Positions 2,440 through 18,149 of a stretch of 33,171 nt of DNA are shown in pieces (the stretch's first letter is position 1; the number at the start of each line of letters is the position of its first letter). The notes under the pieces are model-generated. The model was given only the letters and a program-made list of their open reading frames with translations, did no database searches and was not told the origin of the DNA. This DNA is from an uncultured Parabacteroides sp. (GTDB lineage: Bacteria > Bacteroidota > Bacteroidia > Bacteroidales > Tannerellaceae). The DNA is taken from assembly GCA_947036995.1 (NCBI GenBank), contig CAMQTD010000010.1, positions 1-33,171 of the forward strand, in the 5' to 3' direction. A program made the translations under genes and the position numbers.

Positions 2440-3915
2440 ATGGAACATCCATTAAGTATTTATAATACCCTTTCACGTAAGAAAGAACAGTTTATTCCGC
2501 TGCACGAAACATCCGTAGGCATGTATGTGTGCGGACCTACAGTGTATGGCGATGCTCACCTAGGGCATGCACGTCCGGCAATCACATTCGACCTTTTGTT
2601 TCGTTACCTCAAACACCTCGGATACAAGGTGCGTTATGTGCGTAACATTACCGATGTGGGTCACCTCGAAAACGATGCAGATGCAGGAGAAGATAAAATC
2701 GGCAAAAAAGCACGTCTCGAAGAGTTAGAGCCAATGGAAATTGTACAGTTCTATCTGAACCGTTACCACGAGGCAATGGGCACCTTGAATGTGCTTCCGC
2801 CAAGCATCGAACCGCATGCTTCGGGACATATCATTGAGCAGATCGAACTTGTTAAAACAATTATGGCAAATGGCTTTGCTTACGAAAGCGAAGGCTCTAT
2901 CTATTTTGATGTTGCAAAATTCGACAAACAGTATGGATATGGTAAGCTATCGGGTAGAAATATCGAAGATATGCTTAACACCACACGCGCACTAGACGGA
3001 CAGACCGAAAAGCGTAACAGCATTGACTTTGCACTATGGAAGTGTGCCTCACCAGAACATATCATGCGTTGGCCTTCGCCTTGGAGCGATGGTTTCCCTG
3101 GATGGCACTGTGAGTGTACTGCTATGGGACGTAAATATTTGGGAGACGAATTTGATATTCATGGCGGTGGTATGGATTTAGTATTCCCTCACCACGAATG
3201 CGAAATAGCACAAGCTGTTGCCTCACAGGGCAAAGAGAATGTACGCTATTGGATGCATAACAATATGATTACCGTAAACGGACAGAAAATGGGTAAATCG
3301 TTGGGGAACTTTATCACCCTCGACCAATTCTTTTCTGGAGATCACGCCTCTTTGGCGCAAGCATATAGCCCGATGACGATTCGTTTCTTTATCCTTCAGG
3401 CACATTACCGCAGTACGGTAGACTTCAGCAACGAAGCGCTTCAAGCATCCGAAAAGGGATTGAAGCGTTTAATGGAAGCTGTTGCAAACCTAGACAAACT
3501 AACACCTTCGGAGCAAACAACGGTCGAGGTACAAGGTCTGCGCGCGAAATGCTACGAGGCAATTAACGACGATTTGAATAGTCCGATTACAATCTCGTAT
3601 CTATTTGATGCTGCACGTGCTATTAATTCGGTATTGGCAGGTCATGGCACAATCTCTGCTGCCGATCTAGAAGAGCTTAAAGCTGTATTCAATCTATTCT
3701 TGTTCGATATTTTGGGCTTAACACCAGAAATGCAAGAGGCTGCAACAAATACCGAAGCGTATGGAAAAGCGATTGATATGCTACTCGAACTGCGTCAGCA
3801 AGCAAAAACAAATAAAGACTGGGCTATGTCTGATAAAATCAGAAACGAACTAACCGCACTTGGCTTTGAGATCAAAGATACCAAAGAGGGTGCAGAATGG
3901 AAGTTAGCTAAATAA
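2440..3915 (+). CDS. cysS: Cysteinyl-tRNA synthetase
   Basis: A class I aminoacyl-tRNA synthetase charging tRNA-Cys with cysteine using ATP. The 491 residues are close to the usual length. The HIGH signature appears as HLGH at residues 40-43, just after CGPTVYGDA whose Cys31 is a zinc ligand. The other zinc ligands sit in WHCECT (about 222-227) and HHECE. The KMSKS loop appears as KMGKS (about 283-287). The C-terminal helical anticodon-binding region is present, so the enzyme looks intact and cytoplasmic. It has its own -7 element upstream. Its 3' side opens into the unusual 734-base repeat-bearing gap. Confidence 0.98.
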
Positions 3916-3928
3916 ATACGATACGAAT

Positions 3929-4170
3929 ACAGCAAAGTCTCCTTTGCTCAAAAAAACCGTAATGTTTTAAATCAAAAGCCGTACTATTTTACCCTAGAAG
4001 CCGCAATGTTTTTAGCGTAAAACATTACGGCTTTTGGCGTAAAACATGGCGGATAATTGCTAGTTGATAAATAGACGGTGTCTTTGCTCGAACAGACGGT
4101 GTCTTCTACACCTAAAACTACTAGCTTTCAGCAAATAGACATATGTATATTCAAACACAGACATATGTCT
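3929..4170. repeat. Array of short repeats on a 22-bp period
   Basis: Cutting this stretch into 22-base blocks from 3929 puts similar words at the same phase. Blocks at 3951, 3973 and 3995 carry variants of CAAAAGCCGTAATGTTTTA. Blocks at 4017 and 4039 carry the same word inverted (TAAAACATTACGG and TAAAACATGGCGG). AGACGGTGTCTT occurs at 4073 and 4094. AGACATATGT occurs at 4137 and 4159. The block at 3929 holds a small palindrome, AGCAAAG-TCTC-CTTTGCT, and the block at 4105 fits no group. The units are degenerate, AT-rich and non-coding (22 is not a multiple of three). Function is unknown. A 22-bp step is two helical turns, which would place protein-binding sites on one face. Confidence 0.65.
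3998..4033. repeat. Long hairpin within the 22-bp array
   Basis: Arms 3998-4012 and 4019-4033 pair over 15 bases with one mismatch around a 6-base loop. No U-tract follows on either strand, so it is not a standard intrinsic terminator, though it could shape the 3' end of the cysS transcript. Confidence 0.7.
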
Positions 4171-4173
4171 ATT
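4134..4173. repeat. 13-bp perfect inverted repeat with AGACATATGTCT palindrome
   Basis: AATAGACATATGT at 4134-4146 is the exact reverse complement of ACATATGTCTATT at 4161-4173. The right side also contains a perfect 12-bp palindrome, AGACATATGTCT, at 4159-4170. The arrangement resembles paired operator half-sites but no binding protein can be named. Confidence 0.6.
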
Positions 4174-4270
4174 ATATGAAATCACAACAATCCAACATAT
4201 AAAGTGGGCGAACCGTTCAGATAAGGTTGAAGTAAATTATTTTTTACATCATTAATATATTTATAAATAG

Positions 4271-4433
4271 CATCTTATGGTGACTATTTGGTTTTTACAC
4301 CCTGCTGTATATTCTGCTGTTTTGATATCGGAGAACCATTTTCATTAGCCTATAGAAATTCAGGTGCTTCAAGTGAGTTTGTTCAGCTGGCTGAAGCGTA
4401 AGGTGTAAAAAACAAAAAGTCACTACATCTTAT
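4271..4433. mobile_element. Candidate MITE with 22-bp terminal inverted repeats and 8-bp target duplication
   Basis: Bases 4280-4301 and 4402-4423 are inverted repeats matching at 20 of 22 positions (outer end GTGACT, inner end TTTACACC). The direct repeat CATCTTAT flanks them at 4271-4278 and 4426-4433, as expected of a target-site duplication. The element between the duplications is 147 bp (4279-4425). It has no open frame long enough for a transposase, so it would need to be mobilised in trans. It could be a deletion derivative of an insertion sequence. The family cannot be assigned by eye. Confidence 0.6.
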
Positions 4434-15590: not shown

Positions 15591-18149
15591 ATGCAGAAAA
15601 ACTTAGTAATTGTCGAGTCCCCAGCCAAAGCGAAAACCATAGAAAAATTCTTAGGAGAAGATTTCAAGGTTATGTCGAGCTATGGTCATATTAGGGATCT
15701 TCAGAAGAAAGATTTTGGAATTGATTTAGCGAATAATTTCACACCAAGGTATGAAGTTCCTGTAGATAAAAAGAAAATAGTTTCCGAACTTAAAGCGAGT
15801 GCAAAGTTGGCCGAAAAGGTATGGCTAGCATCCGATGAAGACCGTGAAGGAGAAGCCATAGCATGGCACCTTTACGAAGTTTTAGATCTGAAGAATAAAC
15901 CTACGCAGCGTATCGTATTCCACGAAATTACGAAAACAGCAATATTAAAAGCAATTGAAACACCGCGTGATATTGATTTGAATTTGGTAGATGCACAACA
16001 AGCTCGCCGAATCTTAGATCGTATTGTAGGTTTCGAACTCTCCCCTATTTTATGGCGCAAGGTTAAGCCTTCGCTCTCAGCAGGGCGTGTGCAATCTGTT
16101 GCCGTACGTGTTATTGTAGAGCGTGAGCGTGAGATTAATGCATTTGTATCTGAAGCAAGCTACCGTGTAATTGCCGAATTTATACTACCAGATGGTAGCA
16201 CTATTCTGAAAGCAGAACTAAGCAAACGTCTTAAAACAAAAGAGGAAGCACAGGCTTTACTGGAAAAGTGTCGCCAAGCTACATTTAAGATTGACGATAT
16301 CGTTAAGAAACCTGTCAAGAAATCTCCAGCACCTCCCTTTACGACCTCTACACTACAGCAAGAGGCTGCTAGAAAGTTAGGTTACTCCGTTTCGCAAACA
16401 ATGGTGATTGCCCAGCGACTCTACGAGGCTGGATTTATCACCTATATGCGTACCGACTCGGTTAACTTGTCTGACTTAGCTTTAGGAACTGCAAAGGCTG
16501 CAATCGTAAATACATATGGTGAAGAGTACCATAAATTCAGAAAATTCAATACAAAAAGTAAAGGAGCTCAAGAAGCCCACGAGGCAATTCGCCCCACCTA
16601 TATCGAGAATGCAAAGATTAAAGGTGATAGCAAAGAGCAAAAAATATACGATTTGATTCGTAAGCGTACCATGGCGAGTCAGATGGCTGATGCAGAGTTG
16701 GAGCGTACGATAATTTCGATCGGACTTGAAGGTGCTTCTGATCGTTTCGTTGCAACAGGCGAGGTGATTAAGTTTGACGGATTTCTTCAACTTTATATGG
16801 AGAGTAACGACGACGAACAAGATAACGAGCAAAGCAGCGGATTACTTCCTCCAGTACACCTAGACGAGATACTTTCATTGAATGAGGTTACAGCTACGGA
16901 ACGTTTCACACAACGCCCTCCACGTTATACTGAGGCTAGTTTAGTGCGTCGTTTAGAGGAACTAGGTATTGGTCGTCCATCTACGTATGCACCAACAATC
17001 CAAACGGTACAGAACCGTGGATATGTAGAACGTGGTGATCGTGATGGTGTGATTCGTAACTACAACATGCTTACACTGGTTCAAAATGAAATTACAGATC
17101 TAGATAAAACAGAAATAGCAGGTGCAGACCGCAATAAGTTAATGCCAACCGATATTGGTATCGTGGTAAACGACTTTTTGATGCACTACTTCCCTAATAT
17201 CTTGGATTACAATTTTACAGCTAATGTAGAAAAAGAGTTTGACTTAATCGCAGAAGGTGATTTAAAGTGGACGGATTCAATTGATACTTTTTATAAAGTA
17301 TTTCACCCCATTGTTGTTTCTACAAGCGAAGCCAAGTTAGAGCATCGTGTTGGTGAGCGTCAACTTGGAGCAGATCCTGTATCGGGCAAACCAGTATTTG
17401 TAAAAATAGGTCGCTACGGACCAGTTGTACAGATGGGAATATCTAATCCTGATGATGAAACAGTAGAGAAACCTCGTTTCGCAGCCTTGTTAAAAGGGCA
17501 ATCTATTGAAACTATTCTGTTAGACGAAGCAATGAAACTTTTTGATCTACCGCGTACCGTAGGAGATTATGAAGGTAAAACAGTTGTTGCCGCTATCGGT
17601 CGCTTTGGTCCATTTGTGCGTCATGATGCTAAATTCATCTCGATACCGAAAGAACTTCAACCACAAACAATAACCCTTGAAGAGGCAATTGCTTTGATTG
17701 ATGATAAGCGTATCAAAGATATTGAAAAGCATATCAAGACGTTTGATGAAGATCCTGAGGTGCAGATACTAAAAGGTCGTTTTGGTCCTTATATTGCATA
17801 TCAAAAGGTGAACTATAAGATCCCTAAAACCATAGAAGATCCAGCATCACTTACGATCGAAGATTGTATGCAACTAATCAAAGATGCCCCTGCTAAAACA
17901 GGTAAGCGTGGAACAAAAGCTGCTGCAGCTAAAGAAACGACTGCTACAGCCAAAAAGAAAGCTGCAACAAAGAAAACAACAACTGCAACTGCTAAGAAAA
18001 CAACAGCTAAGAAGGAAACAGTAAAAAAAGAAACAACAAAGAAAACAGCAGCAAAAAAAACGACAGCAACGACAGCAACGAAAGCAGCAGCAACGAAAGC
18101 GTCTACTACGACTAAAGCAAAGAAGACAACAAAAGTTAAAGAAGCATAG
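15591..18149 (+). CDS. topA: DNA topoisomerase I with lysine-rich C-terminal tail
   Basis: Type IA topoisomerase that relaxes negative supercoils. The 852 residues begin with the Toprim domain (VIVESPAKAKTIEKFLG, then ASDEDREGEAIAWHL with the metal-binding acidic triad). The catalytic tyrosine is Tyr285 in ITYMRTDS. The strand-gate motif SAGRVQSVAVR is intact. The C-terminal region has several topoisomerase repeat units of the form GRFGPFV or GRYGPVV without Cys4 zinc ribbons. From about residue 769 to 852 the protein is almost only Lys, Ala and Thr with scattered Glu, like a histone H1 tail, probably a disordered DNA-binding extension. It has its own promoter. No clear terminator separates it from the next gene. 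Confidence 0.97.
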   Translation: MQKNLVIVESPAKAKTIEKFLGEDFKVMSSYGHIRDLQKKDFGIDLANNFTPRYEVPVDKKKIVSELKASAKLAEKVWLASDEDREGEAIAWHLYEVLDLKNKPTQRIVFHEITKTAILKAIETPRDIDLNLVDAQQARRILDRIVGFELSPILWRKVKPSLSAGRVQSVAVRVIVEREREINAFVSEASYRVIAEFILPDGSTILKAELSKRLKTKEEAQALLEKCRQATFKIDDIVKKPVKKSPAPPFTTSTLQQEAARKLGYSVSQTMVIAQRLYEAGFITYMRTDSVNLSDLALGTAKAAIVNTYGEEYHKFRKFNTKSKGAQEAHEAIRPTYIENAKIKGDSKEQKIYDLIRKRTMASQMADAELERTIISIGLEGASDRFVATGEVIKFDGFLQLYMESNDDEQDNEQSSGLLPPVHLDEILSLNEVTATERFTQRPPRYTEASLVRRLEELGIGRPSTYAPTIQTVQNRGYVERGDRDGVIRNYNMLTLVQNEITDLDKTEIAGADRNKLMPTDIGIVVNDFLMHYFPNILDYNFTANVEKEFDLIAEGDLKWTDSIDTFYKVFHPIVVSTSEAKLEHRVGERQLGADPVSGKPVFVKIGRYGPVVQMGISNPDDETVEKPRFAALLKGQSIETILLDEAMKLFDLPRTVGDYEGKTVVAAIGRFGPFVRHDAKFISIPKELQPQTITLEEAIALIDDKRIKDIEKHIKTFDEDPEVQILKGRFGPYIAYQKVNYKIPKTIEDPASLTIEDCMQLIKDAPAKTGKRGTKAAAAKETTATAKKKAATKKTTTATAKKTTAKKETVKKETTKKTAAKKTTATTATKAAATKASTTTKAKKTTKVKEA

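Follow-up and report, generated by a model that had tools for sequence, protein, structure and literature searches.

A 22-bp array of dyad repeats beside cysS in an uncultured Parabacteroides and its likeness to arrays linked to HU-winged-helix genes in Tannerellaceae

Organization of the Intergenic Region Downstream of cysS

The window analyzed here is a stretch of 33,171 nucleotides from an uncultured Parabacteroides sp. (assembly GCA_947036995.1, contig CAMQTD010000010.1). Its ORF 2440-3915, identified as cysS by its relatives, the closest being 81% identical and from Parabacteroides distasonis, which assigns the genome to Tannerellaceae or its vicinity, is followed by an intergenic region carrying two repeat arrays, designated A and B (Table 1). 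A first-pass annotation had described related words recurring here every 22 bp, in fixed phase from position 3929, and the words it listed have been located where it placed them or within a few bases. The period has been confirmed, with a lag-22 identity of 0.596 at 3940-4060, compared to 0.259 ± 0.047 in dinucleotide shuffles, and of 0.47 across 3929-4175. Of 1000 shuffles, none came up to these identities at lags of 5 to 59, and TRF also assigned period 22 to the region. The fixed phase holds for the five slots of array A; the stretch 3929-3950 is not a unit, and array B stands out of phase.

The units of array A are imperfect, about 16 bp long, separated by 6-bp linkers and flipped in place, an arrangement that speaks against a CRISPR layout. 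The earlier description of the region as non-coding and not CRISPR-like agrees with the findings. The positions given earlier for direct and inverted copies were correct to within a few bases, with the amendment that both kinds occupy the same 22-bp slots. Like units are spaced by 22 bp, direct-to-inverted units by 18 (or 40) bp and inverted-to-direct units by 26 bp, which indicates a single fixed ladder in which units have been flipped about a centre between CCGC and AATG. The periodicity of array B taken alone is weak, its lag-22 value being reached by 3 of 1000 shuffles, and by 256 of 1000 at some lag; nonetheless, units of type B stand next to A arrays in several further places of the same genome.

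Table 1. Positions of the repeat features and associated genes in the window and at related loci (L).
Feature	Position	Strand	Description
cysS	2440-3915		Upstream neighbour of the array region
Array A	3953-4056	.	Five 22-bp slots, order FFFRR; each slot an imperfect dyad AAAGCCGC|AATGTTTT of about 16 bp
A slot 1	3953-3968	+	AAAACCGTAATGTTTT; centre 3960.5; CCG at 3957
A slot 2	3975-3990	+	AAAGCCGTACTATTTT, diverged; centre 3982.5; CCG at 3979
A slot 3	3997-4012	+	Centre 4004.5; CCG at 4001; centre of overall imperfect palindrome and loop of predicted hairpin
A slot 4	4019-4034	-	Inverted unit; centre 4026.5
A slot 5	4041-4056	-	Inverted unit; centre 4048.5
Array B	about 4073-4169	.	Begins about 30 bp after array A, in a different phase
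B dyads	4073-4083, 4094-4104		AGACGGTGTCT, 21 apart
B degenerate slot	about 4115-4127		ACTACTAG-type
B word	4137, 4159		AGACATATGT, 22 apart
Second repeat	4221-4430		Inverted arms 4280-4301 and 4402-4423 (GTGACTATTTGGTTTTTACACC)
ORF	15591-18149		Repetitive 3' end (17900-18100)
D array cassette (C210)	L205 71-2640		D array, HU-HIG gene, VapE/BT4734-like gene
11-bp-period module	L207, L208, L209, L211, L212 near 1404-1520; L206 40-160		GTGATAGAGGA...
ORF6N gene (G075)	L275 462-1360		A-like array about 80 bp downstream
21-bp-period arrays (G075)	L280 9638; L307 7164; L283 14424; L315 6164		AAAACTCCGGCGGCCTTTT

Dispersal of Array A

The genome to which the window belongs has been assembled to 2.59 Mb in 226 contigs and is 80% complete, and counts given for it as a whole rest on searches combined with stretches of sequence. 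A DNA search together with later finds revealed around 20 A arrays between genes. All 18 of those placed on a grid fit a five-slot ladder, mostly in the order FF.RR. Periodicity, slot geometry and dispersal are all direct observations. The flanking genes are varied and mostly housekeeping, and no HU-like gene was seen among them when they were read by eye. For 35 arrays of several words, the flanking genes were tandem in 13 cases, divergent in 10, convergent in 7 (including arrays classed as 'inside') and unresolved in 5, which is close to the background of long intergenic regions (55 tandem, 40 divergent and 12 convergent) and argues against a role as terminator or promoter.

Outside this genome, the exact A pattern was absent from 84,980 species genomes, a set from which the source genome and its nearest relatives may have been left out, and from viral contigs. 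With a cutoff of E <= 1e-4, a DNA search detected no A array in a further 124 genomes of Tannerellaceae, and phages and plasmids gave no match. G075, a 99% complete genome of another genus, contains an A-like word, AAAGYGCAATGTTTT, at six loci within the 600 kb covered, with no HU-HIG gene beside any of the six arrays. Replication iterons, one of the readings offered by the first-pass annotation, are unlikely: there is no single cluster beside an initiator, and the roughly 20 chromosomal copies lie dispersed between varied genes. Its other reading, an operator array, would agree with the preferred one of dispersed operator-like arrays.

A Shared 22-bp Pitch With Different Words

The same annotation had proposed conservation among relatives as a check; it was found for the 22-bp pitch and not for the word. 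Within 433 kb of the source genome, period 22 is shared by all six of the strongest short-period regions. Other words in this genome are C (RTACAACCnnGGTTGTACGATC), which occupies four slots, and D (ACCCGGGT), for which four slots with spacings of 23-22-23 are the usual layout. In 400 kb of G003, from another genus of Tannerellaceae, 12 regions of period 22 and two of period 21 were detected at an identity of at least 0.65, comprising many different words in mostly about four to five slots. At the same identity level, 600 kb of G075 contained 22 regions of period 22 and four of period 21, all other periods below 42 being absent. Period 22 thus dominates the intergenic repeats of three Tannerellaceae genera, with many words and about four to five slots each.

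Across 80 cysS loci in Bacteroidales the modal periods were 22 and 23, and small samples from other families of the order contained scattered 21-23-bp arrays without a clear pattern. A strict pair of word D was absent from 294 other Bacteroidales genomes; a word resembling it is present in a single MAG of Bacteroides (L057). In 196 kb of G131, from another family of the order, of which only 11.5 kb is intergenic, no array with a 22-bp period exceeded 0.6. This genome has one PF18291 match, at the level of canonical HU, and the lack of arrays in the sample is a predicted absence, observed in one genome with a small intergenic total.

Linkage to HU-Winged-Helix Genes

Contig C210, reached through a PF08800 search, has an HU-like gene (PF18291 HU-HIG, TIGR01201) with a D array some 45 bp upstream of it and a VapE-like/BT4734-like gene after it. 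On C6 an HU-HIG gene is preceded by a C array, and on C171 another is preceded by a variant of word C. HU-HIG, reportedly named in a 2017 comparative study of HU clades, is thus the gene family linked to the arrays; its Pfam description covers the domain fusion only, and no account of its association with arrays was found in the open literature searched on HU-HIG and on 22-bp Bacteroidales repeats.

Of the 19 HU-winged-helix genes (PF18291, at least 190 aa) in four genomes, 17 have an array of period 22 or 23 just upstream, compared to 15 of 621 background genes (13/285 in G003 and 2/336 in the source genome; Fisher p = 8e-23), and one of the two background positives in the source genome is the C6 HU gene itself. 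An array was defined by an identity of 0.655 over 44 columns within 250 bp upstream, and six control periods yielded zero arrays at HU-HIG genes. These thresholds were fixed after the first genomes (G000 and G003) had been inspected, and the closest to an independent test are G075 and G033, where seven of eight and two of two long genes, respectively, carry an array. At L220, a further long gene, the upstream score of 0.59 is below threshold. Shorter HU-HIG genes (<190 aa) have an upstream array in 4 of 18 cases, or 4 of 17 once L251 is set aside, as it should be for want of a proper reading frame. PF14848 was considered as a second cognate family, and no case was found in the source genome.

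An AlphaFold2 model of the C6 protein (mean pLDDT 82.5; pTM 0.52, with uncertain domain placement) has a body matched by Foldseek to HU proteins and to 4fmr, and a C-terminal unit predicted as helix-helix-helix-strand-strand. Its assignment as a winged helix is based on the model and on how Pfam describes the family, Pfam matches to winged helices in the region being weak.

Covariation of Proteins and Words

A weight matrix was built for each upstream array and scored against a sample of its home genome and against another genome. Upstream words found dispersed home arrays in 7 of 8 cases in G003 and 3 of 3 in the source genome, with home scores of about 40-100, whereas scores in the other genome did not exceed about 25. 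For L215 the best match (96.1, at L131) is its own upstream array, followed by two independent ones scoring 68.5 and 57.9; the home matches of L228, at about 40, belong to a related word. In G075, five of the eight words tested have home arrays (L244, L250, L256, L258 and L260). Two of these, L244 and L256, have matches in G003 as well, at arrays with a related word, the best score of L262 lies in G003, and no home array was found for L252 and L264 in the G075 sample.

Similarity between words was observed to follow similarity between proteins: across 22 genes, rho was 0.445 for all pairs and 0.418 for between-genome pairs, neither value being attained in 2000 permutations. An orthologous pair of short HU-HIG genes (L234/L246) retains the related word GAGGTAC. 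For several words of G003 and G075 no cognate was found, and none of the nine PF18291 hits in the source genome, 80% complete, carries the A or B word upstream.

Proposed Function and Alternative Explanations

The window array consists of dyad sites at a two-turn, 22-bp pitch, and on balance it is probably a landing site for dimers of the HU-winged-helix type that has been spread by copying. The first-pass annotation had remarked that such a pitch would place repeated binding sites along a single face of the DNA, a suggestion which fits the arrays of the same pitch and size upstream of HU-winged-helix genes in other Tannerellaceae genera. By analogy with these, the array would be lined on one helix face by dimers of a sequence-specific protein combining an HU-like domain with a winged helix in one fusion (HU-HIG, PF18291). 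The HU domain would dimerize and bend the DNA, the two winged helices would read the half-sites, and four to five dimers would assemble per array. Every paralog would have its own word, present in an array ahead of the paralog's gene, probably for autoregulation, and in dispersed copies elsewhere, and these proteins may thus be private, sequence-specific organizers of the nucleoid.

Array A has the 22-bp pitch, the four to five dyad slots, the intergenic position and the dispersal in its home genome that characterize this class, and together with B it would be expected to work in the same manner. Nonetheless, A and B are not placed in the class, since no HU-winged-helix gene carrying the A or B word was found in the source genome, nor one with the A-like word in G075. 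We would tentatively extend the proposal to Tannerellaceae as a family with parallel private chromatin systems, in which paralogs and their autoregulated, dispersed words coevolve; the gene for the window's word may then lie in the unassembled part of the genome, or the array may belong to a sister system with another protein. If correct, the main proposal would provide a multicopy family known mainly by its domain architecture with a DNA target and hence with a function open to testing, would make the paralog-word pairs a natural set for reading how DNA-binding specificity diverges, and would account for a large class of Bacteroidales intergenic repeats apparently undescribed in the open literature searched.

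A selfish repeat of MITE or REP type, moved by a transposase and without host function, in which the internal palindromes are transposition structures, is an unlikely but serious alternative. It would account for the roughly 20 dispersed copies, for the larger composites built at several loci from A, B, D and an 11-bp AGTGATAG module, and for some terminal inverted repeats, but not readily for a slot number of four to five and a 22-bp pitch that remain constant across unrelated words, nor for the HU-winged-helix linkage; moreover, no Y1 transposase (RAYT) was found in the 80% complete source genome. Neither a target duplication nor an empty site could be established, an empty-site comparison within the genus of G003 having met species too distant for it (about 70% identity). 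Spread by copying and protein binding are compatible. As a separate observation on the composites, the 11-bp-period module lies about 150-250 bp from D arrays and also beside one A+B pair, with a common order of modules.

It is rather improbable that the A and B arrays are read by a different protein such as one of the ORF6N (KilA-N) type. Such a gene does adjoin an A-like array in G075 (Table 1) and no HU-winged-helix cognate was found for A, yet this is a single instance against five other A-like arrays in 600 kb of that genome without ORF6N nearby, and the motif was not seen at the A loci of the source genome.

Least credible is a structured RNA acting as terminator or mRNA stabilizer after cysS: although the window array folds as one hairpin (-42.3 kcal/mol, z = -7.1), as inverted arrays tend to, and inner linkers are more complementary within loci than expected (0.565 versus 0.415; 3/2000; 18 A arrays), whole arms are as complementary between loci as within (0.622 and 0.619), slots 1 and 5 are less so within, gene orientation is unbiased, and Rfam gave sub-threshold matches with no family at gathering score. 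A conserved full-length hairpin for A arrays is therefore not supported, and the linker signal may reflect local palindrome correction or local pairing.

Relation to Described Systems

The preferred reading, protein dimers on phased dyads, has partial counterparts in ParB-parS and MatP-matS, where a single protein recognizes isolated dyads dispersed over the chromosome. The arrays differ from these in having four to five phased sites and many paralogs with different words. REP/BIME elements with RAYT (TnpA-REP) are alike in being dispersed intergenic palindromes that alternate in orientation and also flank a gene; in the arrays, however, the linked gene is HU-winged-helix, the 22-bp pitch is constant and each genome has many words. 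The nearest described repeat is the BrickBuilt MITE of Porphyromonas gingivalis, a species that also has tandem repeats of 22, 23 and 41 nt (PMC4596501). BrickBuilt resembles the A arrays in being an intergenic, dispersed Bacteroidales repeat (19 copies) with units of about 23 nt, and differs in having 1 to 22.8 direct repeats, a leader and a tail, and IS5-like GAGACC terminal repeats; the passages reporting it describe no fixed slot ladder, unit flipping or linked DNA-binding gene family (PMC4596501).

Additional Repeats

Further repeats have been observed alongside the arrays. In G075, 21-bp-period arrays occur at four loci (Table 1), and a 22-bp CAAACTACCGGTAGTTTG array lies close by at L315, L276 and L279, with an A-like array also at L315. 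In the window, a second repeat with inverted arms follows array B, and stretches similar to it recur elsewhere in the source genome (C30, C134 and C98). The ORF at 15591-18149 contains several short tandem repeats near its 3' end.
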